NCBI GenBank assembly: GCA_003158855.1
Contig: PMLJ01000023.1
Coordinates: 1 to 51,941, forward strand
DNA: 51,941 bases
Source of the DNA: Acidimicrobiaceae bacterium
GTDB lineage: Bacteria > Actinomycetota > Acidimicrobiia > Acidimicrobiales > RAAP-2
Direction: 5' to 3'
Positions 1 through 22,011 of this stretch are shown one piece after another. The notes beneath the pieces were generated by a model. It was not told the DNA's origin. It saw nothing but the letters and a program-made list of their open reading frames with translations, and did no database searches. The position numbers and the translations under genes were made by a program. Each line of letters starts with the position of its first letter. Position 1 is the first letter of the stretch.

Positions 1-677
1 AAGGCGATCTCGTTCGGCGTCTTCTGCCGGTTCGCCCCCTCGACCAATGAGATCATCCGATCGATGAACGTGTGTCCGCGCTCGGCGGTTATCCGCACCA
101 CAATCCGGTCGGAGAGGACCTTAGTGCCGCCCGTGACCGCCGAGCGGTCACCTCCAGACTCGCGTATCACGGGTGCCGACTCCCCGGTGATCGCGGACTC
201 GTCAACCGACGCGATCCCTTCGATGATCTCTCCGTCCGAGGGAATGATGTCATTGGCCTCGCAGACGACCAGGTCGCCCATCGAAAGATCCGCCGCCGGC
301 ACCAACTCCTCAGTCCCGTCGGCGCGCAGTCGGCGAGCCTCGGTTTCGGACCGCATCTTTCGAAGCGTGTCAGCTTGCGCCTTGCCGCGCCCTTCGGCCA
401 TTGCTTCGGCGAAGTTGGCAAAGATCACGGTGAGGAAGAGCCACACGGTGATCGACCACGTGAACGTGCTCGGGTGAGCGAAGGCCTCGATCAGGGTGAT
501 GACCGAACCCACGAGCACGACGAACATCACCGGGTTGCGGACTTGAATCCGAGGATCCATCTTCTTGAATGAATCCTTGAACGCCTGACGCAGGATCTGG
601 CGGTCAAAGAGGCCTCGAGCTTGCGCAACGCCGTGTGGAGTCGACTCAGAAGTTGGCTGAGTAAGGACAGTAGACAT
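1..677 (-). CDS. kdpB: KdpB, catalytic P-type ATPase subunit of the potassium pump (partial, N-terminal ~225 residues)
   Basis: This is the ATP-hydrolysing subunit of the high-affinity KdpFABC potassium uptake complex in the cytoplasmic membrane. The minus strand reads open from the ATG at 677 to the left edge, so the phosphorylation-site half lies outside the window. Visible are an N-terminal amphipathic region, a first membrane pair around residues 48-90, and the actuator domain with its TGES motif (context AITGESAPV). The ATG shares one base with the kdpA stop (TAATG), which indicates translational coupling and supports this start. kdpC would be expected beyond the left edge. The assignment is firm from sequence and order. 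Confidence 0.95.
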
Positions 678-2365
678 TAAAAGAACCTCGCGTGGCTAAG
701 TTGTTCGACAATTGGTCCGAGAGAGATGGCCGGGAAGAAGGTCAGCCCGCCAATGATGAGGATCACGCCAATGGTGAGTCCCACGAACATCCCGTTGTCT
801 GTTCGGAAGGTACCGAGGGACTCGGGAACCACGTTCTTCTGAGCGAGCGCACCTCCGAGGGCGAGCACCGGGATCATGATCGCGAAGCGGCCGACCAACA
901 TGTCGATGGCGCCGACGATGTTGTAGAAGGGCGTGTTGCCCGTGAGCCCGCCAAAGGCGGAGCCATTGTTGTTGCCCTGCGAAGTGAGTCCGTAGAGGAT
1001 CTCAGTGAATCCGTGGGGGCCGGCATTGAGCGGACCGGCCTTACCCGCAGCGAGCGATACGGCGAGCCCGGTGATGATCAATACCGCGATCGGCATCACG
1101 AGGGCCCCGAGGCCCGCGAGTTTCACCTCTCTGGCTTGGATCTTCTTGCCTAGATACTCCGGCGTGCGCCCAATCATGAGCCCACCGATGAACACCGCGA
1201 TGATGGCGTAGAGCAGCAAGGTGTAGAGGCCGCTGCCCGTCCCGCCCGGGGTGACTTCGCCCAACATCATTCCCGTGAGCAGCCCCATTCCACCGACGGG
1301 AGTGAACGAGTCGTAGGAAGCGTCGGCAGACCCCGTCGACGTACTGGTCGAAGCGACGCCGAACAAGGCCGTCGTGGTGTCGCCAAAACGAACTTCCTTG
1401 CCCTCGGTGTTTCCGACGGTCGAGTGAATGCCGGCGGCCGCAACGGCTGGGTTGTTCTGGTGCTCGCCGTAGCTCGTGAAACCAACCCACACGCCAAACA
1501 GGATCACCATCACCGACAGCAGCGCCACACCGTGGCGAATACTTCCCACCATCTTTCCGAAGGTGTAGGTGAGCGCCACCGGTATGGCGAGCAGCAGGTA
1601 GATGGAGAGGAAGTTGGTGAGGCCGGTCGGGTTCTCAAAGGTCGTGGCGGAGTTCGTATTAAGGAAACCACCGCCATTCGTACCGAGTTGCTTGATCGTC
1701 TCCATGAAGGCTATGGGTCCACGTGCCATGGTCTGGGTCACCTGATTGAGCACGTCGTGGATCGTCGCCGTTCCCGCCAAGGTCTCGACAGCGCCCTGGG
1801 CGACGAAGATGATGCCGAAGAAGAACGCAATCGGCAGCATGATGTAGAACAAACAACGGGTGATGTCGACCCAGAAGTTGCCTATGGTCGACGAGTTGCG
1901 ACGTGAGAAACCACGGACCACCACCATCGCAACGGATATGCCGACCGCGGGCGACACGAACTGCTGGACCGAGAGCGCCCCTATCTGGGAGAAGTACGAC
2001 ATCGTCGTCTCACCGCCGTAGTTCTGCCAGTTGGTGTTCGTGACGAAGGATGAAGCAGTGTTGAAGCTCAACGCCGAGCCGACTCCGCCCAGGTGCTGCG
2101 GGTTAAGTGGCAGCGAGCCCTGGATTCGAAGGATCACGTACGTGAAAAGAATCGAAACCCCCGAGAAGATGATCACCGCACCGGCGTAGCGCTTCCACGT
2201 CTGCTCCTGCTCGGGGCTCGTCCCGAGCAGTCGGTACACAGGCCGCTCGATGAATTTGAGAAAATGGACCCGGCCGTCGAAGACTGCCGCCATGTAGGAA
2301 CCTAGGTACCGCCACGTGAGCCCGAGGGTGACGACGAGCAGGACGAGTGTGAGAAGGAAGGACAT
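677..2365 (-). CDS. kdpA: KdpA, potassium-binding and translocating subunit
   Basis: A 562-residue polytopic membrane protein of the SKT (Trk/Ktr/KdpA) channel-like superfamily, the subunit that selects potassium in the KdpFABC pump. Length matches the family (about 557 residues in E. coli). Selectivity-filter-like loops are visible: NWQNYGGET near residues 112-120 and [11 protein letters not shown] near 229-239. Many hydrophobic segments span the chain, starting with residues 3-20. The start is the ATG directly after kdpF; kdpF stop and kdpA start abut. Kdp expression is classically induced by potassium limitation through KdpDE, whose genes lie divergently just upstream. Confidence 0.97.
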
Positions 2366-2455
2366 TTAGAATTTCTCCGGCTTGAACATGGCGTAGCCGA
2401 GGTACAAGAACATGACTGCGGCCACTGCTAAAAGGATGTCTTGGGTGAGCGTCAT
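2366..2455 (-). CDS. kdpF: KdpF, small stabilising subunit of the Kdp pump
   Basis: A 29-residue single-span membrane peptide ending in the FKPEKF-type tail common to KdpF proteins (MTLTQDILLA at the N-terminus, then LYLGYAMFKPEKF). KdpF binds KdpA and stabilises the complex; E. coli KdpF is also 29 residues. It sits directly in front of kdpA and its ATG overlaps the stop of the upstream small ORF in an ATGA arrangement, so it is translated as part of the same operon. It is too short for most gene callers, but position, length and sequence agree. Confidence 0.88.
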   Translation of the reverse strand: MTLTQDILLAVAAVMFLYLGYAMFKPEKF

Positions 2456-2535
2456 ACGCGGTCCAAGACCCAAACAAGTCCGAGCATCGCGAGGGTAAAC
2501 CCAACGATGCCCAGTAGTGAATAGATATCTGCCAT
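2452..2535 (-). CDS. 27-residue membrane peptide leading the kdp operon
   Basis: A tiny ORF starting MADIYSLLGI and ending VWVLDRV, with one hydrophobic span of about 18 residues. A good ribosome binding site (AAGGAG, nine bases before the ATG) lies at about 2545-2550, and the stop overlaps the kdpF start (ATGA). This site and the coupling imply it is really translated. From memory, similar short membrane peptides ending in a charged arginine/aspartate tail precede kdpF in other actinobacteria, but I know no established function. It could be a second accessory peptide of the Kdp complex or a leader that sets expression of kdpFABC. Confidence 0.7.
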   Translation of the reverse strand: MADIYSLLGIVGFTLAMLGLVWVLDRV

Positions 2536-2568
2536 GAAGTAAGTCTCCTTGTTAGATTCTCAACACAT

Positions 2569-2596
2569 TCTTAATAGCCGGAGCGTAGTCTTAATA
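2569..2596 (-). promoter_or_regulatory. Direct repeat in the kdp control region, candidate KdpE operator
   Basis: The octamer TCTTAATA (plus strand) occurs at 2569-2576 and again at 2589-2596, exactly 20 bp apart, so both copies face the same side of the helix. The repeat lies in the 118-bp region between the divergent kdpFAB operon and the kinase/regulator pair. It is AT-rich against a GC-rich background. OmpR-family regulators such as KdpE bind tandem direct repeats, so this is a reasonable operator candidate. The role is inferred, the repeat is seen. Confidence 0.45.
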
Positions 2597-2653
2597 ATTC
2601 CTTCATTCCCGTCCCAGTCGTCGTCACGCGATTATTAGTGGAACAATGGGAGA

Positions 2654-4126
2654 GTGCGTGGACGCCTAGTTGGTCTGACTCTGGGGATGTCCAGCGCCTT
2701 GGTGCTAGCGCTCATCCTTCTCCCCCTGCGCGACCACGTCGCCGTCGCCACGGTGACCCTGATATTCATCATCCCGGTGATCCTCGGGGTCGTCACGGGT
2801 GGTCTCGCAGCCGGTCTGGCAACCGTCGTCTTCAGCGCGCTTCTTCTGGACTTCAACTTCATCCGTCCCTACGGCACGCTTTCGATTGGATCGACCCAGG
2901 ACTGGGTTGGACTCGGCGTCTACCTGGTCGTGCTGGCGCTGGTCGCTCACGTGGTCTCAGATCTCAAGGCCGCGCGAGTCGAAGCTCACCGCAGTGCAGA
3001 GAATATGCGGCGCGTCTACGAGCTGTCGGAGCTGCTCGTCCAGGAGAGGTCGGTCGAAGACTTGTTGATTACCGTCGTTCGCGCGCTCCAGAACGTCTTT
3101 GGATTCGACGGGGTCTCCCTATTCGTCCTCGAAGACGAGGAACTGAAGGTCGCCGCTTCGGTGGGCAACGCCCTGACGACCGAAGAGCTGAGTCAGCTCG
3201 ACCCCCACTCCGGACTGTCAGTGAGCATCTCAACTGCCCTCGGTACGACCGGGAGCCTGCGAACAGTGGCGCTCTCATCGTCGGGTCGGCCAACGGGTCT
3301 CCTCGTGCTCAAGGGTCGACCGATTTCTGACGCCGATCGGACCGTGCTTATCACCTTTGCCAACGACGCGGCCCTCGCCATGGAGAGGGCTCATCTTCGC
3401 GAGCAAGCCTTGAGAACCCAGTTTCTTGAGGAGGTAGACCGGCTGCGCCACGCGCTCATGGGTGCCGTCTCACACGACCTTCGCACACCTCTCGCCACCA
3501 TCAAGGTCGCCTCATCGACATTGGTCAACCGAGCAAATCTGCTTTCAACGGAGGACACTCAAGAACTGCACGAATTGATCGAGATCGAATCGGATCGTCT
3601 CACGCGACTGGTCACCAACCTGCTCGACATGACCCGAATTGAGGCTGGCGTCCTGAAGATCAACCGCACCTCGACGCCGGTGAAGGACTTGATTGATGAG
3701 GCGGTATCCGTGATGGGATCGAGCCTTAAGCGCGACCGGGTTCGCGCGTGCGTTGAAGGTTCGCTGCCAGATGTGAGCGTCGACCGCGTGCTCATCGTCC
3801 AGGTGCTCGTCAACCTTCTCGACAACGCGCTTCGCCATTCTCCCCAGGACGGCGTCATCACGATTGAGAGCGAGCTTCGAGGCGGGCGGGTCATCATTTC
3901 GGTGTCGGACAAAGGCACGGGTGTTCCACTAGAGGATCGCGAATCTATCTTCAACCGATTTGTGAAGTTCGACACGGGCGGCAGGGCCGGGCTGGGACTC
4001 ACCATCGCCAAGACCTTCGTCGAGGCCCACGGGGAGAGGATTTGGTGCGACGACGCCCCCGGTGGAGGCGCCAAGTTCATGTTCTCCATGCTTCCAGATG
4101 GCAGCACTGATTCGAAGCACTTCTGA
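2654..4126 (+). CDS. kdpD: KdpD-like sensor histidine kinase lacking the N-terminal KdpD/Usp region
   Basis: A 490-residue membrane kinase. It begins with a DUF4118-type membrane module (hydrophobic spans about residues 10-25, 30-45, 45-65 and 85-100), then a GAF-like domain (about 115-245), a HisKA domain with phospho-accepting H274 in AVSHDLRTPLA, and a C-terminal HATPase with DNALRHS, DKGTGVP and GLGLTIAK motifs. Full-length KdpD proteins carry about 370 further residues at the N-terminus (KdpD and Usp-like domains); these are absent. It is paired with kdpE two bases downstream and divergent from kdpFAB, so potassium-pump control is the obvious role. The GTG start at 2654 is uncertain; ATG at 2687 is an alternative. 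Confidence 0.88.
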   Translation: MRGRLVGLTLGMSSALVLALILLPLRDHVAVATVTLIFIIPVILGVVTGGLAAGLATVVFSALLLDFNFIRPYGTLSIGSTQDWVGLGVYLVVLALVAHVVSDLKAARVEAHRSAENMRRVYELSELLVQERSVEDLLITVVRALQNVFGFDGVSLFVLEDEELKVAASVGNALTTEELSQLDPHSGLSVSISTALGTTGSLRTVALSSSGRPTGLLVLKGRPISDADRTVLITFANDAALAMERAHLREQALRTQFLEEVDRLRHALMGAVSHDLRTPLATIKVASSTLVNRANLLSTEDTQELHELIEIESDRLTRLVTNLLDMTRIEAGVLKINRTSTPVKDLIDEAVSVMGSSLKRDRVRACVEGSLPDVSVDRVLIVQVLVNLLDNALRHSPQDGVITIESELRGGRVIISVSDKGTGVPLEDRESIFNRFVKFDTGGRAGLGLTIAKTFVEAHGERIWCDDAPGGGAKFMFSMLPDGSTDSKHF

Positions 4127-4128
4127 TT

Positions 4129-4827
4129 ATGGCGAAGGTATTAGTCATTGACGACGACAAGTCACTCCTACGGGCGCTGCGCCTTGGACTCAAGGCGGGC
4201 GGGCACGAGGTCGTAACTGCCGAGACGGGCGAACACGGGATATCTCAAACGGCCTTGGTTTCGCCTGACGTGGTCATCTTGGACATCGGCCTTCCAGATA
4301 TCGATGGCTTGACCGTGTGCAAGAGGATTCGCCAATGGAGCGACGTCCCCATCATCATCCTCTCCGCCACTGGGGCGGAGAATCGAAAGGTTGCCGCGCT
4401 CGACGGCGGCGCCAACGACTACGTGACCAAGCCGTTCAGCATGGCCGAGCTCGAGGCTCGGATACGAGTCGTGGTACGGAACCGAATCCCCGATTCTGAA
4501 ATAGCCGGTCCCGCGCTCCTGCGATGCGGACCTTTGGAACTCGACTTGGTTCACCACGAGGTGAATCTCCGGGGCGAAAAAGTTCAATTGACCGCGAAAG
4601 AGTTCGAAGTCTTGTCCTTCCTCGCGCGCCACGCCGGGCGCACGTGCACCCACCAGATGATTCTCAGCGCCGTCTGGGGCGTTGGATACGGCAAGGAGGC
4701 CCAGTACGTTCACGCCTACGTCCACCGCTTGCGCCAGAAACTGAACGACGAGACGGGAGAGATCATCCGAACGGTGCCCGGCGTGGGCTACTACGTGCTC
4801 CCTAATGAGGACGTCGAGAGTTCGTGA
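4129..4827 (+). CDS. kdpE: KdpE-type response regulator (OmpR family)
   Basis: A 232-residue two-domain regulator. The receiver domain shows the acidic pocket (IDDD, residues 7-10), phospho-acceptor D52 in VILDIGLPD, and the conserved lysine in DYVTKPF. The C-terminal winged helix has the OmpR/PhoB pattern (LTAKEFEVLSFLARH, then RLRQKL and VPGVGYYV). Only two bases separate it from the kinase gene, so the two form one operon. It most likely activates the divergent kdpFAB operon when phosphorylated by the adjacent kinase. Confidence 0.93.
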   Translation: MAKVLVIDDDKSLLRALRLGLKAGGHEVVTAETGEHGISQTALVSPDVVILDIGLPDIDGLTVCKRIRQWSDVPIIILSATGAENRKVAALDGGANDYVTKPFSMAELEARIRVVVRNRIPDSEIAGPALLRCGPLELDLVHHEVNLRGEKVQLTAKEFEVLSFLARHAGRTCTHQMILSAVWGVGYGKEAQYVHAYVHRLRQKLNDETGEIIRTVPGVGYYVLPNEDVESS

Positions 4828-4923: not shown

Positions 4924-5781
4924 TCACGACAACTTCGTGATTTCGACCGTCACGCCGAGCGCCCTCGACGGTGCGCCGTGATAGATGCCCTTCAGCGGAG
5001 GAACGTCGCCGTAGTCTCGTCCCTTCGCGACGACCACGTGCTGAAGTCCGATGTCGTTCCCGTTCGTCGGATCGACTCCGACCCACTCGCCGCAGAAGTA
5101 CTCGACCCAGGCGTGGCTTTGACCGAGCACCGTCTCGCCGATGGTCGGATCCGCCTGGGGGTGGAGGTAACCGCTCACGTATCGCGCGGGAATCCTCCGG
5201 CCACGCAGGAATGAGATCATGAGGTGCGACAGATCCTGGCAGACCCCGGACTTCTGGGTCCACGACTCAAGGGCGGTGGTGGTGACGTGGGTCGAGCCCG
5301 TGACGTAGGCGACCCGGTCGCGCACGAAGGATGACACGCGCGCCACGACATCGTCCACATCGTCGTTCCTGATCTCGGCGGCGAGTTCGGCGTGGAGATC
5401 GTCCGGCAGGAACGTGCGGGCCCCGGCCTTCAGGTATTCCGAGTACCGGTCCATCACCGAGGCCGTTCCCAACTCCTCGAGCGAGAGGGAAGCCGACGAA
5501 CGCTCGGCCCTCACGACCTCGACCAGGGCCCCGGCGGTCACTTCCAATTGACTGTGACGCTCGTGCAGGTCAAAGGCCGTCACCGCGGATCCGAAGTAGT
5601 CGAGATACGTCAGCTGGGACGCGACCGGCGACGTTCGAAGCGTCGCTTCGAGGACGTGCTGGCGCGATGAGCTGAGCGGCGTCATGCGCGCCTCGTTGTA
5701 CGAGGACTCCGCCAAACCGTCGTAGACGAATCCGGTGACGTGTCGGATGGACAGGCGCGACGATCGGGGGGCCGCGGTCAC
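4924..5781 (-). CDS. Transglutaminase-like cysteine peptidase-fold protein
   Basis: A 285-residue cytosolic protein with an N-terminal beta region common to this subfamily (SIRHVTGFVYDG) and a C-terminal transglutaminase-like core. The catalytic triad is readable: C181 in KSGVCQDLSH, H223 in GQSHAWVEY and D238 in VGVDPTNGND. The GTG at 5781 overlaps the stop of the alpha-E gene (GTGA) and is preferred to a GTG seven codons upstream. It is the last gene of a three-gene unit with alpha-E and ATP-grasp proteins. This trio recurs in many bacteria and is predicted from comparative genomics to form or process a peptide; the substrate is unknown. Confidence 0.85.
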   Translation of the reverse strand: MTAAPRSSRLSIRHVTGFVYDGLAESSYNEARMTPLSSSRQHVLEATLRTSPVASQLTYLDYFGSAVTAFDLHERHSQLEVTAGALVEVVRAERSSASLSLEELGTASVMDRYSEYLKAGARTFLPDDLHAELAAEIRNDDVDDVVARVSSFVRDRVAYVTGSTHVTTTALESWTQKSGVCQDLSHLMISFLRGRRIPARYVSGYLHPQADPTIGETVLGQSHAWVEYFCGEWVGVDPTNGNDIGLQHVVVAKGRDYGDVPPLKGIYHGAPSRALGVTVEITKLS

Positions 5782-6734
5782 AGGCCCTGCTCGGTCGCCC
5801 ACGGCTCGGCGATGACGTGGCGAAAGTAGCGGCTGGTGATCTCGTCGTTGGCCGACGCGCAGGTCCTCTCCAGGAACTCCAGGAGCTCCGGCAGCTCCTC
5901 CACGAGCGTGCGCGGATCGGAGAACTCCAGCCGGTTCCTCGCACGGCCAATGGTGCGCCGGGCATTGGACGTGTCGCCCACCCGGCTGTGCGAGGTCGTC
6001 AGGAGATCGAGCGAAGAGTCCGCCACGTTGAGGGCGTGGAAGGCCGAGCGGGGAAAGAGCCGGTCGAGCAGCAGGAACGAAGCCAGTGACTCGGCGGTCG
6101 CGTTGCCCCTCGACTCACGCAGGTACGACTCCATCGCGCCCGCGGCGCGGAGCAGCGTCAGCCAGTCCGGCGGACTGTCGAGGCCAACGAGCTGGGCGTC
6201 GAGCAGGCGGCACGTCATGTCGATCCTCTCGATGCTCCTGCCGAGCACCAGGAAGTGCCAGCCTTCGTCGTGGCTGATGGTGGCGTCGCTCAGCCCGGCG
6301 AAGAGCGCCGCGCGGTCCGAGACGAACTTGAAGTAGCTCGCGGCGCCGACACCGCGCGCCTGGCGCTGACGGGCGGCGACCTCTTCATTGGTGCCGTTGA
6401 GGCACACCCACATCTCGGAGGAAATGACCTCGCGCGAACGTCGGGCGTTCTCGTAGGCCGCGCGCAGCGCTCCGGTGATGGCGCTCGGACTCTCGCGCGA
6501 GAAGACCAGGTCCTCGAGCACGATCTCGGTCGTCGCGGGGCGGTCCTCGTCGAGTTCCACCCCGAGAATCGCGAACAGCGAGCGGCACGCGTTCTCGGGA
6601 TCCCCGAAAGGATCTTCGGCGATGCGGTGGATGTAGGCGTTGATGATCCGGGAGGTGCCGTCGGCCCGCTCGACGTATCGGCCAATCCAGTAGAGCGATT
6701 CGGCGATCCTCGAGAGCAGCCGCTGCTCGCTCAC
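5778..6734 (-). CDS. Alpha-E domain protein
   Basis: A 318-residue, largely alpha-helical protein recognisable from its opening (LLSRIAESLYWIGRYVERAD) and internal FLVLGRSIERIDMTCRLL as the alpha-E family. The family has no established biochemical activity but is nearly always encoded between a circularly permuted ATP-grasp enzyme and a transglutaminase-like protein, as here. The GTG at 6734 overlaps the upstream ATP-grasp stop (GTGA); the reading frame stays open for 700 bases further upstream without similarity, so this start is chosen on coupling and on where the family begins. Its stop overlaps the next gene in the same way. Confidence 0.85.
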   Translation of the reverse strand: MSEQRLLSRIAESLYWIGRYVERADGTSRIINAYIHRIAEDPFGDPENACRSLFAILGVELDEDRPATTEIVLEDLVFSRESPSAITGALRAAYENARRSREVISSEMWVCLNGTNEEVAARQRQARGVGAASYFKFVSDRAALFAGLSDATISHDEGWHFLVLGRSIERIDMTCRLLDAQLVGLDSPPDWLTLLRAAGAMESYLRESRGNATAESLASFLLLDRLFPRSAFHALNVADSSLDLLTTSHSRVGDTSNARRTIGRARNRLEFSDPRTLVEELPELLEFLERTCASANDEITSRYFRHVIAEPWATEQGL

Positions 6735-8278
6735 TGCTCGGCCTCGCTGACGTGCGACGGGCCGCGTTGGCGCACGATGGCGTTCGCCGGAGGTCGCACG
6801 CGGACCACGTTCGAGGTGGCACCCGTCGACTGGTCCAACGCCGAGTCGCGATCGGCCAGGACCCACGTATCCTTCGAGCCGCCGCCCTGGCTGGAGTTGA
6901 CGACCAGGGCGCCCTCGGGCAACGCCACGCGGGTAAGCCCGCCGGGCAGCACCCAGACCTCGCGGCCGTCGTTGATGGCGAAGGGACGCAGGTCCACGTG
7001 GCGAGGGGCGATCTTGCCGTCGACGTAGGTAGGCAGCGTGGAGAGGGCGACGGGACGTTGCGCGATGAATCCACGAGGATTCGCCTCGACATCCTTTCGA
7101 AGGTTGTGCAAGACCTTCGCATCGGCTTGGGGCCCGATGACGATCCCCTTGCCGCCGGAGCCGTCGACGGGCTTCACCACGAAATCGCGCAGCCGGGTGA
7201 TGACGTCGGCGAAGATCTCCGGGTCGTCCAGGCGGTACGTCTCGACGTTCTGCAGTATCGGCTCTTCGTTTCGGTAGTAGCGAATCAGGTCCGGCACGAA
7301 CGTGTAGATCAACTTGTCGTCCGCGACCCCGTTGCCGAGCGCGTTTGCAATGGTGACCGTGTTTGCGCGCGCAGCGTTCACCACGCCCGCGACGCCGATC
7401 AACGAATCCGGTCGGAAGTGGACGGGGTCCAGCCACTCGTCGTCGACGCGGCGATAGATCACGTGCACCGGCCGCTCGCCCTCGGTCGTGCGGAGCATCA
7501 CCCGGTTCCCGACGGTCACGAGGTCGCTTCCCTCGACAAGTTCGACGCCCATCAACCTCGCCAGGAGGACGTGCTCGAAGTAGGCGGCGTTATGGACACC
7601 GGGGGTCAGCACCACGACGGTCGGGTCACGGACCTCCTCGGGAGCCGAGAACCTCAAGGCGGCGAGCAGTCGCTGCGGGTACTCGTCAACGGGGTGCACC
7701 CGCTGGTTCGTGAAGAGCGATCCGAAACTCTGGGTCATGGCCCTGCGGTTCTCGATCACGTAGGACACGCCTGACGGGATGCGCAGGTTGTCTTCGAGGA
7801 CGCGGAAACGCCCCAACTCGTCGCGGATCAGGTCGACTCCCGACACCGTGATCCTGGGGGCGTGCGAGGGGACGATGCCCACGGCTTCTCGACAGAAGTG
7901 CTCGCTCGAGGTGATGAGGCTCCTCGGAATGACGTCGTCGTCGAAGCACTGGCCATGTTGGTACACGTCGCTCAGGAAGTTCTCGAGGGCCACGACGCGC
8001 TGCTGGATGCCGCTGGAAAGGATGTCCCACTCAACGGCGCTGATGATCCGGGGGATCAGGTCGAGGGGGAACGGGCGCTCTTCGCCGTCGTGGGCGAAGG
8101 TCACTCCCCTTTCGCGAAAGGTGCGGCCGAGTTGATCGAATCGGGTCTGCAGTTCGCCCTCGCCGTAGCGTTCGATCTCGGCGACCACATCTCGGTAGAC
8201 GGGCCGCGGCTTTCCGGGCTCGCTGAACACTTCGTCCCACGCCTGCTTGGGATCAATCTCGACGTATGACTGTCCCAT
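6731..8278 (-). CDS. Circularly permuted ATP-grasp protein
   Basis: A 515-residue protein of the circularly permuted ATP-grasp type (formerly DUF404/DUF407), a fold that joins carboxylates to amines using ATP. Visible features are the glycine-rich nucleotide loop VKPVDGSGGKGIVIGP, the VALEN/LSDVYQHG segment in the N-terminal half and the QRPVALSTLPTY motif. The ATG at 8278 gives the usual family length; the frame is open further upstream but without recognisable sequence. It leads the three-gene unit with alpha-E and the transglutaminase-like protein, all joined by 4-nt overlaps. The product is inferred to be a small peptide or modified amino acid and is not known. Confidence 0.88.
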   Translation of the reverse strand: MGQSYVEIDPKQAWDEVFSEPGKPRPVYRDVVAEIERYGEGELQTRFDQLGRTFRERGVTFAHDGEERPFPLDLIPRIISAVEWDILSSGIQQRVVALENFLSDVYQHGQCFDDDVIPRSLITSSEHFCREAVGIVPSHAPRITVSGVDLIRDELGRFRVLEDNLRIPSGVSYVIENRRAMTQSFGSLFTNQRVHPVDEYPQRLLAALRFSAPEEVRDPTVVVLTPGVHNAAYFEHVLLARLMGVELVEGSDLVTVGNRVMLRTTEGERPVHVIYRRVDDEWLDPVHFRPDSLIGVAGVVNAARANTVTIANALGNGVADDKLIYTFVPDLIRYYRNEEPILQNVETYRLDDPEIFADVITRLRDFVVKPVDGSGGKGIVIGPQADAKVLHNLRKDVEANPRGFIAQRPVALSTLPTYVDGKIAPRHVDLRPFAINDGREVWVLPGGLTRVALPEGALVVNSSQGGGSKDTWVLADRDSALDQSTGATSNVVRVRPPANAIVRQRGPSHVSEAEQ

Positions 8279-8360
8279 ACCCAAAGTTATCCCCGCAATG
8301 TTTCGAAAGTATTTCTCGACGACCGTTCGTGAGAAGTTTCCTCTCCCTTTGTTGGCCGAG

Positions 8361-8372
8361 TACGTTGGCCGG
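8361..8372 (+). promoter_or_regulatory. Leaderless-type -10 element for the MDMPI-fold gene
   Basis: TACGTT at 8361-8366 fits the actinobacterial TANNNT -10 consensus and is followed by six bases and the ATG at 8373. That spacing places the transcription start at the start codon. No Shine-Dalgarno sequence precedes the ATG, which supports leaderless initiation. The element is inferred from pattern only. Confidence 0.5.
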
Positions 8373-8939
8373 ATGGATCTCAACGAAGCCCTCACGCTCA
8401 GCACAACGAACTTCCTTTCCCTGCTCGAACACGTCGGGCCCAACGACTTGGCGCTGGCAACCCCGTGCGAAGGGTGGGCGGTGCGTGACTTGGTGGCCCA
8501 CGTGGCGCGCGGCTCTGACATGTCCGTGTCCCTGCTCAACGGCGCGTCCCAATCCGAGGCATCGGAACTCCTCATGGCCGCGGCGCCCGACGACGTGCTG
8601 GGCGAATGCCGTCGCGCCCTCGCCGCCCAGCTCGCGGCGATGACGAACGCCGTCGACCTCGAACGGATCGTTCACCACACCATGGGCGACATTTCCACGC
8701 GCCAACTGTTCGACTTTCGAATTGGCGATCTCACTCTTCACGCGTGGGACCTCGCGCGGGCGCTTTCCATCCCCGACGAGCTCCCCGACGAGCTCGTCGA
8801 GCACGTCTACGACGTCCTTCTGCCCATGGAGGCGTTCATCGGGGATATTGGCGTCTTTGGCAGGGGCCCGTCGGGGGCCGTCGAAGTCGACTCCACCACC
8901 CAAGCCAAGTTGCTCGATCTGACCGGACGACGTCCGTAA
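8373..8939 (+). CDS. Maleylpyruvate isomerase N-terminal domain (DinB-fold) protein
   Basis: A 188-residue protein of the mycothiol-dependent maleylpyruvate isomerase / TIGR03086 type, a DinB-like four-helix fold. The typical pattern TPCEGWAVRDLVAHVARG occurs near residues 32-49, containing the first metal-ligand histidine, with later HTMGDIS and DLTLHAWDLARAL blocks matching the family. Members use mycothiol or act as metal-dependent enzymes; many are uncharacterised. It stands alone, divergent from the ATP-grasp unit, with its own leaderless-type promoter. A specific substrate cannot be assigned. Confidence 0.8.
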   Translation: MDLNEALTLSTTNFLSLLEHVGPNDLALATPCEGWAVRDLVAHVARGSDMSVSLLNGASQSEASELLMAAAPDDVLGECRRALAAQLAAMTNAVDLERIVHHTMGDISTRQLFDFRIGDLTLHAWDLARALSIPDELPDELVEHVYDVLLPMEAFIGDIGVFGRGPSGAVEVDSTTQAKLLDLTGRRP

Positions 8940-10660: not shown

Positions 10661-11113
10661 CTAGGCGTGCTTCACCGCGATCCGACGCGTCGCGTCACGC
10701 GGTGAACTCTTCGGCAGCGCCATTCGAACCTCCAAGACGCCATCCTTGTACGTCGCCTCGATCATCGACGGATCAACCCCGGTCGGGATCGGAACGCTCC
10801 TCGTCAGGGATCCGTACCGGAACTCACTGCGGTGGAAGTGATGATCACCCTTCTCGTGGCTCTCGGTCTTCTCCGCCGATATCACCAGCGCACCGTCGAT
10901 TACCTCGACCTCGATGTCCTTGTCAGGGTCCACTCCGGGCAACTCTGCTCGAACCACCATCGCGTCGCCTTCTCGGCATTCCTCGATCTTGATCATCTGG
11001 TGCATTTCGCCCTCGTGGAAAAACTCGTCCAGCCACCTCCAGGATGGCCACGAAGTCCCAGCCCAACTGGCGGGCAGATTGCGTTGCTTGCTTGAAACTT
11101 CAGTGTTTACCAT
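10661..11113 (-). CDS. Hsp20/alpha-crystallin small heat-shock protein
   Basis: A 150-residue small heat-shock chaperone. The alpha-crystallin core spans roughly residues 45-140: it opens at IEECREGDAMVVRAELPGV, includes the GALVISAEK strand, and ends with the conserved ATYKDGVLEVRMALPK segment. The ATG at 11113 has a clear GGAGG five bases upstream, which decides the start over an upstream in-frame ATG at 11152. Small Hsps hold unfolding proteins in an ATP-independent manner. It lies near TrkA/P-type ATPase and nitroreductase genes, a neighbourhood reminiscent of stress and dormancy regulons in actinobacteria, though that link is inferred. Confidence 0.93.
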   Translation of the reverse strand: MVNTEVSSKQRNLPASWAGTSWPSWRWLDEFFHEGEMHQMIKIEECREGDAMVVRAELPGVDPDKDIEVEVIDGALVISAEKTESHEKGDHHFHRSEFRYGSLTRSVPIPTGVDPSMIEATYKDGVLEVRMALPKSSPRDATRRIAVKHA

Positions 11114-11327
11114 GTCAACCTCCGCATCGCGGAAAGGCCACCGCCCCGCCATGAGACGGCGACGCTACTTCCAATCCCCACGGTACGCCCCTTAGCACGG
11201 TGCGGTGACCGAGAACGTAGGGCACATTGTCACAACCTCGGACCGCCAACATCATCCGAATTCGATACGTGCCTTCACGCTCATCGAAGGGAGTCGCACG
11301 CGACACGTCGCTACGAATGGCCGGTCC

Positions 11328-11726
11328 TCAGTTCCCCGTCTGCTCGACCAAGGCGACGAGCGCTCCGGCCGACGAGATTGCGGCGTCGACGCCCCAGGAC
11401 CCGTCAAAGAGCCAGCGGTTGGCATCATCATTGATCCGCGCCACGACCCGCGGGATTTCGAGGTGGCGCTTGGCCATGACCGAGATGACGAGGTTCTCCG
11501 AGTCACGCTCCGTGCAGGCGACGAGTACGTCCGCGCGCAGGGCACCCGCCGCCTCGAGCGAAGTGGCGACACTCGCATTCCCCGTCACGATCTCGAGCCC
11601 CTCGGCCTTGAGGATCGCGGCACGCGCACTTTCGTTCTCGATCACGATGACCTGGTGATCCGAGGCAACCAACGCCCGGGCGATCTGGGCGCCAACCACA
11701 CCTCCCCCGGCAACGATGACCCTCAT
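11328..11726 (-). CDS. Short TrkA-N (RCK) NAD-binding regulatory protein
   Basis: A 132-residue protein consisting essentially of one RCK N-terminal Rossmann domain. The dinucleotide motif is VAGGGVVGAQIAR near residues 5-17, with the acidic end of the second strand at VIVIEN. No TrkA-C domain follows. Such proteins are cytosolic gating subunits of Trk/Ktr potassium transporters. Its ATG overlaps the stop of the longer TrkA protein (ATGA), so the two are co-translated, probably as a heteromeric pair. No TrkH/KtrB channel gene is present in the window. Confidence 0.85.
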   Translation of the reverse strand: MRVIVAGGGVVGAQIARALVASDHQVIVIENESARAAILKAEGLEIVTGNASVATSLEAAGALRADVLVACTERDSENLVISVMAKRHLEIPRVVARINDDANRWLFDGSWGVDAAISSAGALVALVEQTGN

Positions 11727-12382
11727 TGTTTCCAGCTCCCTCCGAGGAAGTTCCTCAGTCGTTCAAGCGAGCCCGACGAGACGACGAAGCTCACCAGGTC
11801 TCCTTCGCGCAACGTTGCTGCGGTCCCCGGGATCGTCGAGTGTCCTCCTCGACCGATTTCCACAACCTGAATCTCACCCTCGACATTGAATTCGGCCACG
11901 CGTCGTCCCGCCAGGTAGTCAGGCACCGACGACCGAACCAGCAGCGACTCCCCGTTGCCGAAGACCATCTCGGGGTCGAGTGGCCGGTGCTGCAACAGTA
12001 GGTGGATCCGGTCGACCGTCATCTGGACCGTGGTAACCATTTGGAGCCCGAGGTGCGCGCTGATCGGATGCCACTCGACGTTGTGCAGCCGACCGAGGAC
12101 GTGCGGCACGCGGAACGTGTCACGAGCCACGCGGGCGGCGACGATATTGAGGCTGTCACTCGAACTCAGGCTGACGAACGCGTCGGCCTGAGCGATGTGC
12201 GCTTCTTCAAGAACCGCTCGCCGCATGGCGTCGCCTGCGACGAAACCGCCCCTGAACGAGACCGGCAGTCGAGCGCGCGTGGCGCCGTCGACGTCGATGA
12301 CATGCACCGCCTCACCCTCGGAATCGAGACGGGCCGCAAGGGCCGCGCCCGAGCGTCCACAGCCAACGATCACGACGTGCAT
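11723..12382 (-). CDS. TrkA-family regulator with RCK-N and RCK-C domains
   Basis: A 219-residue protein with an N-terminal Rossmann RCK domain (VIVGCGRSGAALAARL, residues 4-19; VHVIDVD ends strand two) and a C-terminal TrkA-C domain from about residue 145 (SSVPDYLAGRRVAEF, GTAATLREGDLVSFV). The family binds NAD(H), ATP or cyclic dinucleotides and gates cation channels. The ATG at 12382 is chosen because the domain begins there; the upstream open frame runs into the ATPase gene. It lies 11 bases after the P-type ATPase stop and overlaps the short TrkA protein by four bases, making a three-gene unit without a channel subunit. Confidence 0.88.
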   Translation of the reverse strand: MHVVIVGCGRSGAALAARLDSEGEAVHVIDVDGATRARLPVSFRGGFVAGDAMRRAVLEEAHIAQADAFVSLSSSDSLNIVAARVARDTFRVPHVLGRLHNVEWHPISAHLGLQMVTTVQMTVDRIHLLLQHRPLDPEMVFGNGESLLVRSSVPDYLAGRRVAEFNVEGEIQVVEIGRGGHSTIPGTAATLREGDLVSFVVSSGSLERLRNFLGGSWKQ

Positions 12383-12393
12383 AGCCGCTCCTC

Positions 12394-15204
12394 TCACGAG
12401 CGTCCCGGCGAAATCACCGATTGGCGCCGCCGGTCCGCACGGCGACCTAACGCCTTTCGAGTTTCGTCCGCTCCCAGCAACAGTACCCCGAAGCCAAAGA
12501 GGATTAGCCAATCCGACAGTCGCAACGGGGCGGTATTGAAAACCCGCTGGAGGAGAGGAACGTAGCTCACGCATGACACGAATCCGAGTCCAATAAGCCC
12601 AGCTCCGATGAGGGGGGGATTGGAGAACAGGCCGATCCGCAGGACGCTCTCGCGATCGGTTCGCACGGCGAAGCTGTTGAAGAACTGACTCACGACGATG
12701 CCGGCCTGGGTCATCGTCAGCGCCTCGCGGTAGGTGTGGTTCGACGACGTAAACGCCGAGAAGGGCAAGTGGGCGGTGTGGATGCGCCAAAAGAAGGCGA
12801 ACACGACGCCGACGGATTCAATGGTGCCGAGGAAGACGAAACGACGCACCAACTCCCACGAGAAGAGGTGCTCATCGGGCGACCGAGGCGGGCGCGCCAT
12901 CGTGTCGGGTTCGGGTCGTTCGGCGCCGAGGGCCAAGGCCGGCAGGACATCGGATCCGAGGTCAATGGCGAGGACCTGGAGCGCCGAGAGGGGAACGAGC
13001 GGGAAGCCAACGAGCGTCGCCGCGAGGATCGGCGCGAGTTCGGCGAGGTTGTGACTGAAGAGGTAGACGAGGAAGTGCCGGATGTTCTGATAGACGCCGC
13101 GGCCCAGCTCCACCGCCGCGGCGATCGAGGCGAAGGAGTCATCGAGCAGCAGCATCTGCGCCGCGGCCCTCGCCACGTCGGTACCCCCTTCACTCATCGC
13201 GACGCCGACGCTGGCTCGCTTGAGGGCTGGGGCGTCGTTGGCCCCGTCCCCGGTGACCGCCACAATCTCTCCGAGTCCTTCCAAGGCCAGCACGATGCGA
13301 AGCTTGTGCTCGGGTCGAACCCTGGCGAAGATGATCTGATCGCCTCCGCGCAGCGCCGTCGCGAGCTCCCCCTCGTCCAAGGCATCGAGATCGGTCCCGG
13401 TCACCACACGGGCGGCGCCGCTTCGCACGATCCCAACGCGACGCGCAATCGCCTCGGCCGTCAGGCCGTAGTCACCGGTGACCATGAGGATGGCGATTCC
13501 CGCCCTCCGGCAGGCCTTGACCGCGTCGGTCACCTCGGGGCGAGGCGGGTCAACCATGCCCACCAGGCCCAGCAACGTGAGCTCGTGCTCCGACTCCTCC
13601 TGGCTCGCCCGGTCGGAGGTAACGGACCTCGTCGCGATCGCCAGCACCCGCAGGGCCGAGCTCGCCATGGCGTCGTTGGCTCGCTCCAACTCGTGGCGAA
13701 GCTCCGGATCCAAAGGGAGATCCTCGCCATTCCATCGAACCTTGGAGCAGCGTTCGATGACGCTCTGGGGCGAGCCCTTCATGAACGCCTCGACGTGGTC
13801 GCCAACCTGATGCAGCGTGGTCATGAGCTTGCGGTCGGAGTCGAAGGGGAACACCCCCACTCTCGGGGTGGACGAGGACTCGGCGGCGAGATCGATCCCG
13901 GCCTTCGCCGCGGCGACGAGGATCGCTCCCTCGGTCGTGTCACCAAGCACCTGCCATCCCCGGTCGTCGATCGGAGACACCAGGCGCGCGTCGCAGCACA
14001 GGGCCCCCACCCTCAGCACCTCGGTGACGTCCGCCCGATCCTCGACGTCGCCTCCGGGGCCGTAACCCACCCCAGTGACGGCGCGCGCCCGCCCCGACAC
14101 GAAGATTTGCTGCAGCGTCATCTCACCCTTGGTGAGCGTCCCGGTCTTGTCGGTGCAGATCACCGTCGTCGACCCGAGCGTCTCCACCGCCACCAAGCGC
14201 TTTATGAGTGCGTGTCGCCGGGCCATTCGTCGCACGCCGATGGCGAGCGATACCGACAGGGTCGCCGGCAGTCCTTCGGGGACCAGCGCGACCATCACGC
14301 CGAGCGCGAACACGAAGGACAGGGACGCGGGATTGCCCGTCATGAGCCGCACCGCGAACAACAAGGCTCCGGCCACTATGGCGACGATCGCAACCCGGCG
14401 GGCCATCTCGCTCACTTGACGCTGCAACGGACTCGTTTCGCGCGGCAAGTCGGCCGTGAGGCGGTAGATGCGGCCGAACTCGGTCCCGAGCCCCGTGGCG
14501 AACACCACCGCTTTGCCGGTGCCGTTCGTCACCGAGGTTCCCATGAACACGCAGTTGCGCGCCTCGAGGGGTTCGAGGCCGCCGCCGACCGGCTCGTCGC
14601 TGCGGGTGACGGGCTGACTCTCGCCGGTGAGCGCGGCCATCTCGACGGAGAGTCCGTGCGATTCGATCACGCGACAGTCCGCCGATACGGCGTCACCCGC
14701 CTCGAGCACCACCACGTCGCCCGTGACCAACTGCTCGGCGCTGATCTCCGTCAATTCGCCGGCGCGCAGAACGCGAGCGGCGTGCGGGACCATGGCCTGG
14801 AGCGCTTGAGCGGTGCGCTCGGCGGAGTGCTCCTGGAAGAAGCCGATGAGGGCGTTGAGCAGGACCACACCAAGGATTGCGAAGGCGAGTTCCAGATTCG
14901 CGGAGTTGCGCGGCGTCGTGAGCAGGTACGTCGCGAACGTCAAGCCGGACGCCACCACCAACAAGATGGCAAACATGTTGGCGAACTGGGCGAGAAACTC
15001 GAGGACTACCGATTGCCGGCGCGGCGCTGGCAGTGCGTTCGGACCCTCGACGCCAAGTCGTCGGAACGCTTCAGCCGCGTCGAGACCCCGGCGCGAACTG
15101 CTCAACGACGCCAAGGCATCTGACGCCTCGAGGGTGAGAACCGACGGCGCCGCCCTCGCCACTTCGGGGCTGCGAGACACCGGCGATCGAGCTTTCTTAG
15201 CCAC
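12394..15204 (-). CDS. P2A-type cation-transporting P-type ATPase
   Basis: A 936-residue P-type ATPase. Domains in order: cation ATPase N-terminal domain (DALASLSSSRRGLDAAEAF), first membrane pair, actuator domain with TGES (ALTGESQPV), PEGLP motif in membrane segment four, phosphorylation site DKTGTLTKGEMT, hinge VTGDGANDAPALK, and a six-helix C-terminal membrane domain. PEGLP and overall layout match calcium/sodium-type P2A pumps; the ion cannot be fixed by eye. The GTG at 15204 begins just before the conserved N-terminal region; a start up to 39 codons upstream is possible. Two TrkA-type proteins follow in the same operon, which hints at linkage to monovalent-cation homeostasis. Confidence 0.88.
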   Translation of the reverse strand: MAKKARSPVSRSPEVARAAPSVLTLEASDALASLSSSRRGLDAAEAFRRLGVEGPNALPAPRRQSVVLEFLAQFANMFAILLVVASGLTFATYLLTTPRNSANLELAFAILGVVLLNALIGFFQEHSAERTAQALQAMVPHAARVLRAGELTEISAEQLVTGDVVVLEAGDAVSADCRVIESHGLSVEMAALTGESQPVTRSDEPVGGGLEPLEARNCVFMGTSVTNGTGKAVVFATGLGTEFGRIYRLTADLPRETSPLQRQVSEMARRVAIVAIVAGALLFAVRLMTGNPASLSFVFALGVMVALVPEGLPATLSVSLAIGVRRMARRHALIKRLVAVETLGSTTVICTDKTGTLTKGEMTLQQIFVSGRARAVTGVGYGPGGDVEDRADVTEVLRVGALCCDARLVSPIDDRGWQVLGDTTEGAILVAAAKAGIDLAAESSSTPRVGVFPFDSDRKLMTTLHQVGDHVEAFMKGSPQSVIERCSKVRWNGEDLPLDPELRHELERANDAMASSALRVLAIATRSVTSDRASQEESEHELTLLGLVGMVDPPRPEVTDAVKACRRAGIAILMVTGDYGLTAEAIARRVGIVRSGAARVVTGTDLDALDEGELATALRGGDQIIFARVRPEHKLRIVLALEGLGEIVAVTGDGANDAPALKRASVGVAMSEGGTDVARAAAQMLLLDDSFASIAAAVELGRGVYQNIRHFLVYLFSHNLAELAPILAATLVGFPLVPLSALQVLAIDLGSDVLPALALGAERPEPDTMARPPRSPDEHLFSWELVRRFVFLGTIESVGVVFAFFWRIHTAHLPFSAFTSSNHTYREALTMTQAGIVVSQFFNSFAVRTDRESVLRIGLFSNPPLIGAGLIGLGFVSCVSYVPLLQRVFNTAPLRLSDWLILFGFGVLLLGADETRKALGRRADRRRQSVISPGRS

Positions 15205-15659
15205 GAGCCTCAGTATCACAGATACCTGGAACGAGGCTCCGGGTCTTGAGAATCCGAACGTGGATCTGACCGGGGTGTTTGCCTCACTGGCGCGAGGTGA
15301 TCTCGATGCCGGCCTCGCCATCGCGCGTGGGCAAGAAACCCCGCCAAGCGGACGGTTCGAAGTGCGTCACTCTTGGAACACACGCGCTGGTCCTTGCCAC
15401 GCCCTCGCCAGCGATCGGTCACCCGTTCGCCGCCGTCACTGATGATGGAATCCTCGATGACAATGGATCCAACGACTGCCCTTCCTGGCAAAGGACCAAT
15501 GGCCCTAGCCACAGTGGCCGCCGGGGTGCCACGGTCGTGATTGGGCGGGCAGAGCGGCCGTGATGCTGCATGCACCCGTCAACCAAGAGGTGCACGCAAG
15601 GGCCGCTTTGATTCGACGAAGGACCCATGGCCGACAACCATCCGATGAAAGGAGAGTTC
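15205..15659. promoter_or_regulatory. Divergent control region with a repeated 14-bp motif
   Basis: This 455-bp region separates the P-type ATPase operon (minus) from the nitroreductase operon (plus) and contains no convincing gene. AAGGACCAATGGCC occurs at 15491-15504 and AAGGACCCATGGCC at 15619-15632, differing in one base and 128 bp apart. The first copy extends to an imperfect palindrome (AGGACCA-A-TGGCCCT). The spacing and partial dyad symmetry suggest a binding site for a dimeric regulator that could control both operons. The regulator is not identified. Confidence 0.45.
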
Positions 15660-16307
15660 GTGACTGCAGCCCAATCAAACGCCGACGTCGCTGAGACCCG
15701 AAGTCCTCTGGGAGCGGGCCCGCCTGGAGCCGAGGGCGCGCTAAAAGCGATCTACCAGCGCCGCGCCGTTCGGGCCTACACCGGCGATCCCGTGCCCCGC
15801 GAAGAGATTGAACAACTGCTCGACGCCGCTATTCACGCCCCCAGCGCCGTCAATCTGCAACCGTGGGGATTCGTCGTGATCCAGGATCGCGAGACCCTCG
15901 CCCGCTACGCCGAGGAGGCAAGGATGCTCCTGCTCGGTGATCCCCCAAGCGAAGGGGTGGTGGAGAGCGGGTTCTCCGGTAACGACTGGCTTCGCCAGAT
16001 GGCCGCCAGCGCAGACTTCGCGATCTTCCACGGTGCTCCCGCTTTGGTGGTGATCTACGCCACGAATAGCGGGGGCACGCCGGACTGCTTCCTCGCCGCC
16101 GAGAACCTGATGCTGGCCGCGTGGATGCTCGGTCTCGGAACCTGCCCAATCGGCTTGGCTCTCCCTTTCTTCAATCAAGAGGAAGTGAAGGCGGATCTCA
16201 ACGTGCCGTCCGATTGGGTCGCCGCGCTGCCAATCACGGTCGGGCGGCCCGCCGGCGAGACGCCGCCCACGACGAGGCGCCCAGTCCAGATCGTCGCCTG
16301 GAGATGA
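15660..16307 (+). CDS. Nitroreductase-family FMN oxidoreductase
   Basis: A 215-residue nitroreductase-fold enzyme. Family signatures are IYQRRAVRAYTGDPVP (FMN-binding arginines), IHAPSAVNLQPWGFVV (the APSAxNxQPW motif) and GLGTCPIGLALPF near the C-terminus. Members are cytosolic FMN enzymes reducing nitro compounds, quinones or related substrates with NAD(P)H. The GTG at 15660 has a strong GGAGAG five bases upstream and is preferred to ATGs at 15627 and 15645. It overlaps the downstream flavin-reductase-like gene by four bases (ATGA), suggesting the two act on linked redox steps. Confidence 0.87.
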   Translation: MTAAQSNADVAETRSPLGAGPPGAEGALKAIYQRRAVRAYTGDPVPREEIEQLLDAAIHAPSAVNLQPWGFVVIQDRETLARYAEEARMLLLGDPPSEGVVESGFSGNDWLRQMAASADFAIFHGAPALVVIYATNSGGTPDCFLAAENLMLAAWMLGLGTCPIGLALPFFNQEEVKADLNVPSDWVAALPITVGRPAGETPPTTRRPVQIVAWR

Positions 16308-20600: not shown

Positions 20601-20642
20601 TGGGCGCTGAGGGACTCGAACCCCCGACCTGCTGAGTGTAAA
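20601..20642 (-). repeat. Left attachment-site repeat: 42-bp copy of the tRNA-Val 3' end
   Basis: These 42 bases are identical to 21938-21979, the T-arm, acceptor 3' strand and part of the anticodon arm of the tRNA-Val gene. Identity stops abruptly at 20643. Copies of a tRNA 3' end flanking a short segment are the hallmark of site-specific integration by a tyrosine recombinase. The flank on the tRNA sense strand after the discriminator reads CCA here (20598-20600), unlike the intact gene, which reads CTA. Confidence 0.85.
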
Positions 20643-21937: not shown

Positions 21938-22011
21938 TGGGCGCTGAGGGACTCGAACCCCCGACCTGCTGAGTGTAAATCAGCTGCTCTAACCAACTGA
22001 GCTAAGCGCCC
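21938..22011 (-). tRNA. tRNA-Val (anticodon UAC)
   Basis: On the minus strand, a 74-base cloverleaf: acceptor GGGCGCT/AGCGCCC, D-arm GCTC/GAGC, anticodon stem GCTGA/TCAGC with loop TTTACAC (anticodon TAC), T-arm GGGGG-TTCGAGT-CCCTC (one mismatch tolerated), discriminator A. It reads GUA-type valine codons. The 3' CCA is not encoded (the genomic sequence is CTA). Bases 21938-21979 are duplicated at 20601-20642, marking this gene as an integration site; the gene is still intact because the inserted element restored its 3' end. Confidence 0.95.

Follow-up and report, generated by a model that had tools for sequence, protein, structure and literature searches.

Which transporter is served by two TrkA-type proteins whose genes follow a P-type ATPase gene and are not accompanied by a Trk channel gene? 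The question is raised by contig PMLJ01000023.1 of an Acidimicrobiaceae bacterium (assembly GCA_003158855.1), the whole 51,941-nucleotide stretch of which was analysed and is called the window here. The answer that we prefer, with a rough probability of 0.5, is that the operon encodes a P2C-like ion pump (Na,K/H,K-ATPase-type) together with its own dedicated two-subunit RCK regulator. Our handles for genomes, contigs and loci begin with G, C and L, respectively.

The ATPase–TrkA operon

On the minus strand, the P-type ATPase gene is followed by the genes for TrkA1 and TrkA2, from 15321 to 11328 (lengths in amino acids, aa):

12394..15321, minus strand: P2C-like cation-transporting P-type ATPase, 975 aa from the longest start (Pfam PF00122, PF00689, PF13246, PF00702, PF00690)
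11723..12382, minus strand: TrkA1, two-domain RCK protein, 219 aa (TrkA_N PF02254 and TrkA_C PF02080)
11328..11726, minus strand: TrkA2, one-domain RCK protein, 132 aa (TrkA_N PF02254 only)

Coordinates and Pfam domains agree with the original prediction, which had described an ATPase followed after 11 bases by a TrkA-N/C gene overlapping a TrkA-N gene. The 11-base gap runs from the ATPase stop to the TrkA1 ATG at 12382 and carries a purine-rich stretch ahead of the ATG. The TrkA1 stop ends at 11723, and TrkA1 and TrkA2 overlap by 4 bases (ATGA). TrkA_N scored 64.4 bits in TrkA1 and 88.3 bits in TrkA2, against a curated Pfam cut-off of 23.8. TrkA_C was above its cut-off in TrkA1 (35.5 bits), and the Pfam search of the window proteins did not find it in TrkA2. 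The TrkA1 sequence shows a GxGxxG motif and, past its second strand, an acidic residue.

The true ATPase start is probably at about 15219 rather than 15321, because residues 1-58 of the longest frame had a pLDDT below 50 in the structure model and in two relatives (L033, L035) the longest open reading frame (ORF) begins at the counterpart of window residue 35. The start proposed earlier, 15204, is close to this position and not identical to it.

Conservation of the three-gene unit

Of the 61 relatives, 6 had the window-type TrkA1 (at least 60% identity), as did 8 of the 397 genomes of the order, and the ATPase was adjacent in every case (6/6 and 8/8). One of these ATPases, in G335, was absent from the results of the order-wide ATPase search and present beside the pair in its DNA. 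A survey of how far the three genes stay together, proposed at the outset as a check, thus tied the pair to the ATPase. The observation named in advance as refuting, the two TrkA genes occurring with a TrkH gene in genomes that lack the ATPase, was not seen for the window-type pair in the order.

Seen from the ATPase, a contig scan gave 29 loci at 64% identity or more. The 3' side could be judged in 23 of them, since L062, L065, L067, L072, L077 and L078 end before it, and the pair was present in 19 of the 23. None of the scan's 14 more distant ATPase loci had it. In the 23 linked loci whose junctions were measured, with gene starts picked by script, TrkA1 and TrkA2 always overlapped by 1 or 4 bases. 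The ATPase and TrkA1 abutted or overlapped in 19 of these loci and lay at most 19 bases apart in the other four. All three genes gave a ratio of nonsynonymous to synonymous substitution rates (dN/dS) of 0.10-0.30 in eight locus pairs, some of which share members. The arrangement exceeds chance, and it is a tight, selected unit in the order.

Judged by length, TrkA2 had two domains in 12 and one domain in 11 of the 23 linked loci, a distribution that needs three changes on the ATPase tree. Residues R78 and A211 of the pump, which differ in every order relative that lacks the pair, were tried as a pump–TrkA interface and rejected: control pairs of linked clades yielded 0-4 such columns, so two columns are unremarkable. 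Two loci from records titled 'Acidobacteria bacterium', L060 (JAGXBH010000008) and L077 (JABBOA010000068), have pumps that group with those of the Acidimicrobiia.

Linked loci across the Actinomycetota

A TrkA1 search of 396 Actinomycetota genomes returned 15 other genomes at 1e-42, and the ATPase adjoined the pair in 13 of them. The exceptions were G470, without an ATPase in the 7 kb examined, and G754, whose only listed ATPase match is on another contig. The ATPase search gave matches in 172 of the 396 genomes at 1e-150. From these, 69 loci were sampled (L150-L218), namely the 29 best-scoring non-own loci and 40 hand-picked further down the list, with others skipped. TrkA genes flanked the ATPase in 43 of the 44 higher-ranked loci versus 0 of the 25 lower-ranked ones, which have no TrkA within about 3 kb. 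Counted as flanked were L166, with one TrkA gene in the 1 kb available, and L152, where the pair is upstream and between two ATPases. The bit scores of the two groups overlap slightly (620 for the linked L188; 640 and 647 for the unlinked L194 and L195). Loci L141-L149, found via TrkA1, are outside this tally, and most of them are rows of the trees.

The order of ATPase and TrkA genes was kept across many families of the phylum, with TrkA1 identity falling to ~35%. Short TrkA2 genes (133-139 aa) were also found in L164, L165, L175, L176 and L184. A unit confined to the Acidimicrobiia was ruled out by these phylum-wide linked loci; what the survey had tied together around the window is not a local feature. 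The TrkA-linked unit is a recurring neighbourhood across the Actinomycetota, and a tight unit in the order.

The operon was also found on plasmid p1 of Streptomyces fungicidicus TXX3120 (L219), under the locus tags CNQ36_RS31595-31605 and with 4-base overlaps at both junctions. It is annotated there as a 'cation-transporting P-type ATPase' and two 'TrkA family potassium uptake protein' genes, and this Streptomyces copy provides a cultivable organism for testing the pump. Five other plasmid records with ATPases of 40-43% identity had no annotated TrkA nearby, in plasmid gene tables that are incomplete.

Some clusters were more elaborate. Tandem P2C-like ATPases, or one on each side of a single TrkA pair, were seen at G476:C7:69384-76408 and G431:C22:34997-40576. 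Four to seven TrkA-like matches surrounded one ATPase in L225/L146, L180, L187, L227, L179 and L181, some of these with TrkH, and some of the extra matches span only ~180 aa.

P2C-like features of the pump

In a tree of 93 ATPases (quick method, LG+G4), all 51 TrkA-linked rows fell into one 68-row clade with an SH-aLRT of 100, and none of the 25 rows outside it was linked. For most rows, unlinked means that no TrkA gene lies within 1.5 to 3 kb. Left out of the tree were L156 and L171 (copies of L143 and L144), L150 and L151 (duplicating the loci L141 and L142) and L145, in which the ATPase is split in two. In M6, at window position 787, Asp was present in 68/68 clade rows versus 0/25 outside (24 Asn, 1 Lys). 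An Asp at this position is a Na,K-ATPase feature, and the position is that of H,K-ATPase E820.

The site residues of the window pump are L346, E349, H757, N758, E761, D787, S790 and D791. Among the linked rows of the main clade, 23 of 43 have N346, E349, S757, N758, E761, D787 and D791 all together; this set of Asn, Glu, Ser, Asn, Glu, Asp and Asp at M4/M5/M6 is presumably the Na,K-type site. The set is incomplete in the window pump, in which L346 and H757 deviate, and within the window clade Leu is found at 346 in 9 of 10 rows and His at 757 in 7 of 10. In a HMMER alignment to the gastric H,K-ATPase 2xzb, H757, D787, V876 and L346 face K791, E820, E936 and Y340 (H,K-ATPase residues named after the title of 7efn; chain and title numbering are off by one).

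A Foldseek search with the window model placed only Na,K- or H,K-ATPase chains at ranks 1-27, with 30-33% identity. The best solved sequence relative of one related pump, L177, is a Na,K-ATPase. For L177 and L169 the best NCBIfam model was TIGR01106 (IIC), with 666.4 and 672.2 bits, under its cut-off of 946.1. The window pump also scored below the cut-offs of the P2A Ca2+ models (TIGR01522, 604.1 vs 798.3 bits; TIGR01116, 555.8 vs 703.4 bits).

The window protein is better described as a P2C-like pump than as a simple Ca2+ pump of the P2A type. The P2A assignment that had been proposed does not hold: D787 occupies the M6 position typical of the Na,K type, and the 27 best structural matches are all Na,K- or H,K-ATPase chains. 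'P2C-like' is used as a description, not as membership, because the ion-specific NCBIfam cut-offs are not reached. His757 in M5, aligned with H,K-ATPase Lys791, suggests that the pumps of the window clade have a built-in positive charge and a coupling that sets them apart from their Na,K-type relatives. In other P-type families a positive M5 residue is thought to be a built-in counter-ion, according to passages of a 2023 review (PMC10654040), and H757 could by analogy act as one in the window clade.

TrkH and the KimA-like permease

The absence of a Trk channel was a central point of the original prediction. As an observation it stands, since TrkH had no match in the window's genome (96.5% complete, 50 contigs). 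As an anomaly it was rejected: TrkH/KtrB was found in 0 of 37 sampled genus genomes, the window's own included, and TrkA_N proteins were found in 61 of 61 relatives. A KimA-like match was present in 35 of the 37 genus genomes, and in 33 of the 37 the coordinates put a KimA-like APC permease immediately next to a TrkA pair, in divergent orientation. The exceptions are G002, G003, G019 and G024, and a few of the permeases are fragments at contig ends. A TrkA pair without TrkH is thus ordinary in the genus. In the window's genome, the KimA-like permease (792 aa) matches KimA, PDB 6s3k, with E = 1.3e-96 and is found with its own TrkA pair on contig C19. The window-type pair is missing from 30 of the 35 genus genomes with a KimA-like match. 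S. venezuelae is likewise reported to have no TrkH (PMC10117811), and the locus tags given there for one of its RCK_C proteins and for a KimA-like permease are neighbours, an adjacency read from the tags.

Kinship of the TrkA pairs

The window pair and the KimA-linked pair share 34% and 41% identity. In the TrkA trees, the KimA-linked and the TrkH-adjacent rows each formed a separate group, apart from the ATPase-linked rows. TrkA1 grouped with the CeoB-like partner and TrkA2 with the CeoC-like partner, CeoB/CeoC being the name that we assume for the KimA-linked TrkA pair, so the pairs travel as pairs.

A small tree hinted at a duplication of the window pair from the KimA-linked pair. This origin was set aside once the phylum-wide tree had put the KimA-linked rows inside the ATPase-linked spread. 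Given that position, and with KimA-linked pairs sampled within the order only, either partner may have come first. The TrkH-adjacent rows form a long branch, placed with the TrkA1 half in the small tree and with the TrkA2 half in the wider one. The small tree represents 5 of 6 TrkH loci, as L116 gave no TrkA row; the wider tree holds 48 TrkA1 and 41 TrkA2 rows, with each TrkA2 cut by a locus end left out.

Proposed mechanism

RCK rings bind nucleotides or ions, and they gate Trk/Ktr channels and some antiporters. In the mechanism that we propose, TrkA1 and TrkA2 would assemble into a hetero-octameric ring like that of TM1088A/B, and this ring would bind NAD(H) or adenine nucleotides in its Rossmann clefts. 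It would contact cytoplasmic domains of the pump and switch pump activity, so that K+ uptake or Na+/H+ export would follow the energy or redox state of the cell.

The wider proposal is tentative, and we put it slightly short of an even chance: widespread actinomycetote Na,K-ATPase-like pumps may be gated by a dedicated hetero-oligomeric RCK ring that reads NAD(H) or adenine nucleotides and stands in for the beta/FXYD and terminal regulation known from animal P2C pumps. Should this coupling exist, ATP-driven pumps would join channels and antiporters among the transporters under RCK control. That RCK proteins of the K+ type recur in the operon suggests that K+ is the ion that matters. The role of prokaryotic P2C-like pumps is an open question, and a section of the 2023 review is headed 'P2C ATPases: what do they do in archaea?' (PMC10654040). 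The novelty expected of an RCK-regulated P-type ATPase was borne out in so far as none was described in the titles and abstract openings of the literature searched, with most subscription journals outside its scope.

Weighing the alternatives

Several observations weigh against a P2C-like pump with a dedicated RCK regulator. Six order loci have the ATPase without the pair (L047, L048, L063, L060, L104 and L105), which needs three changes on the ATPase tree, and the pair-less ATPases of the order show no surplus of altered conserved sites. Within the 68-row clade, 17 rows are unlinked, and 14 further P2C-like rows, beyond the six order loci, keep the pump without the pair. Junctions are looser in the phylum, where the ATPase–TrkA1 spacing in 39 loci ranges from -4 to 434 bases and the TrkA1–TrkA2 spacing from -4 to 83 bases.

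TrkH was searched for in 44 of the 47 linked phylum genomes (G476, G518 and G722 were left out) and found in 31. The survey of trkH in the same genomes, also proposed at the outset, thus came out empty in the genus and not in the phylum. In five genomes (G484, G506, G516, G605 and G626) TrkH lies within about 5 kb of the ATPase, and there a shared K+ island explains the arrangement equally well. The mapped cluster contains further TrkA genes in four of these five loci.

On the side of the pump, the score with TIGR01106 was 549.3 bits, below the cut-off of 946.1, and the highest NCBIfam score belonged to the PMR1-type Ca2+ model (604.1 bits). Among the sequence matches of the window protein, a Listeria Ca2+ pump came first, narrowly ahead of H,K- and Na,K-ATPase. 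CtpF of M. tuberculosis, a possible relative, is called a Ca2+ pump in the portions of the literature consulted, and mycobacterial CtpF is hypoxia- and DosR-regulated according to parts of PMC3573892.

The best-surviving alternative is that the pair regulates another K+ transporter in trans, the KimA-like permease or TrkH, and that the pump is merely co-expressed in the same K+ programme. We consider this unlikely. KimA-like proteins are nearly universal in the genus sample, the near relatives of the window pair include the KimA-linked pair, and kdp genes lie 9 kb off in the window; the TrkH-bearing linked genomes, with TrkH near the operon in five, fit the same view. However, in 33 of the 37 genus genomes a separate TrkA pair sits next to the KimA-like permease, and in the TrkH loci L225, L187 and L227 TrkH is accompanied by further TrkA genes. 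In the 61 and 397 genomes the window-type pair never occurred without the ATPase, while 30 KimA-bearing genus genomes do without the pair. TrkH had no match in 13 of the 44 linked phylum genomes, including G452, a single contig of 9.2 Mb (KimA was not searched for in these 13).

Rather doubtful is a second alternative, in which the RCK–pump coupling is real and the pump exports Ca2+, Na+ or H+ without importing K+, the pair protecting against the ion or saving energy under stress. It draws on the PMR1-type top model, on the missing Asn346 and Ser757 of the Na,K set, on CtpF with its reported regulation, and on the stress genes (Hsp20, nitroreductase, universal stress proteins) that neighbour the operon here or on the S. 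fungicidicus plasmid. It is opposed by D787, where 24 of 25 non-P2C rows have Asn, by the full seven-residue set in 23 of 43 linked relatives, and by the Na,K-ATPase chains that are the best sequence match of L177 and the best structural match of the window model.

Hitch-hiking or chance, without a functional link, is very improbable: the lack of the pair has left no visible mark on some pumps of the clade, but gene order is kept in many phylum families at low TrkA1 identity and dN/dS is well below 1 for all three genes in the order.

Neighbouring genes

The following features of the window are given as context:

10661..11152, minus strand: Hsp20 family gene, downstream of TrkA2 (Pfam PF00011)
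15627..16307, plus strand: nitroreductase family gene, divergent from the ATPase (Pfam PF00881)
677..2365, minus strand: kdpA, K+-transporting ATPase A subunit (Pfam PF03814, 706 bits)
3..677, minus strand: start of kdpB, cut by the contig end (PF00122, 94 bits)

An Hsp20 gene was near the operon in 3 of the 27 loci compared. Outside the operon, only ABC-type proteins (6/27) and an antisense ORF (5/27) were found in more than 3 of the 27. On plasmid p1 the operon is surrounded by genes for a universal stress protein, an adjacent nitroreductase, Hsp20 and DUF1876. With Hsp20 and nitroreductase genes flanking the operon in the window, and all four kinds of gene on plasmid p1, the setting resembles dormancy/hypoxia clusters, described in part in a paper on OsdR. 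A DosR-like box in the window was tried and rejected, with 32 matches at up to 2 mismatches versus 50.9 expected by chance.

The kdp genes, ~9 kb from the ATPase operon, represent a second K+-uptake system nearby. At 1-4827, kdpA and the kdpB start are divergent from genes for a DUF4118 histidine kinase and a response regulator (2654-4827), and the same order of kdp, kinase and regulator genes was seen in a sister genome (L032). At 4924-8575, transglutaminase-like, Alpha-E and circularly permuted ATP-grasp genes stand in a row, a gene set that is common in bacteria and little understood. A 14-base string is repeated at 20611-20624 and 21948-21961, and looks like the T-arm of tRNA genes.

Comparison with known systems

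The alpha subunits of Na+,K+-ATPase and gastric H+,K+-ATPase are the closest counterparts of the window pump, by the top 27 structural matches and the acidic site residues including D787. They differ in their 30-33% identity to it, in its H757 (M5) and L346 (M4), and in its score below the IIC cut-off; the H,K-ATPase also has a Glu in M8 where the window pump has V876.

KdpFABC is likewise a P-type ATPase in K+ transport, and kdpA with part of kdpB is found in the same window; we know of no RCK protein that is a KdpFABC subunit. In contrast to the window pump it is of the P1A type and has a channel-like subunit, KdpA, as described in passages of PMC10654040.

In KhtTU and CpeAB (sections of PMC10117811) and in KefC (sequence matches), RCK domains regulate a transporter that is not a channel. 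KhtTU and CpeAB are secondary K+/H+ antiporters. The RCK_C signature for cyclic di-AMP (c-di-AMP) in KhtT/CpeA is given there as (I/L)(I/L)x2DxRx5N(I/L)(I/L) (PMC10117811), and it is missing from the window-type TrkA proteins. Sensing of c-di-AMP via RCK_C was accordingly rejected, as neither the signature nor a looser pattern was matched in 23 TrkA1 and 23 TrkA2 proteins.

The CeoB/CeoC-type pair beside the KimA-like permease, with its copy on C19 in the window's genome, also consists of two TrkA genes in the same order. It has a permease as partner, falls into separate tree groups and shares the 34% and 41% identity given above with the window pair.

A precedent for the pair itself is TM1088A/TM1088B of Thermotoga maritima (PDB 3l4b), to which the window pair has sequence matches. 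There, too, one N-only and one N+C RCK protein are encoded by overlapping genes; according to PMC4380455, they form a hetero-octamer in which TM1088A holds AMP, and their partner is the TrkH TM1089. Unlike them, the window pair has a P-type pump adjacent, and its N+C gene comes first. The gene architecture agrees with a TM1088-type hetero-octamer, which by analogy TrkA1 and TrkA2 may form.

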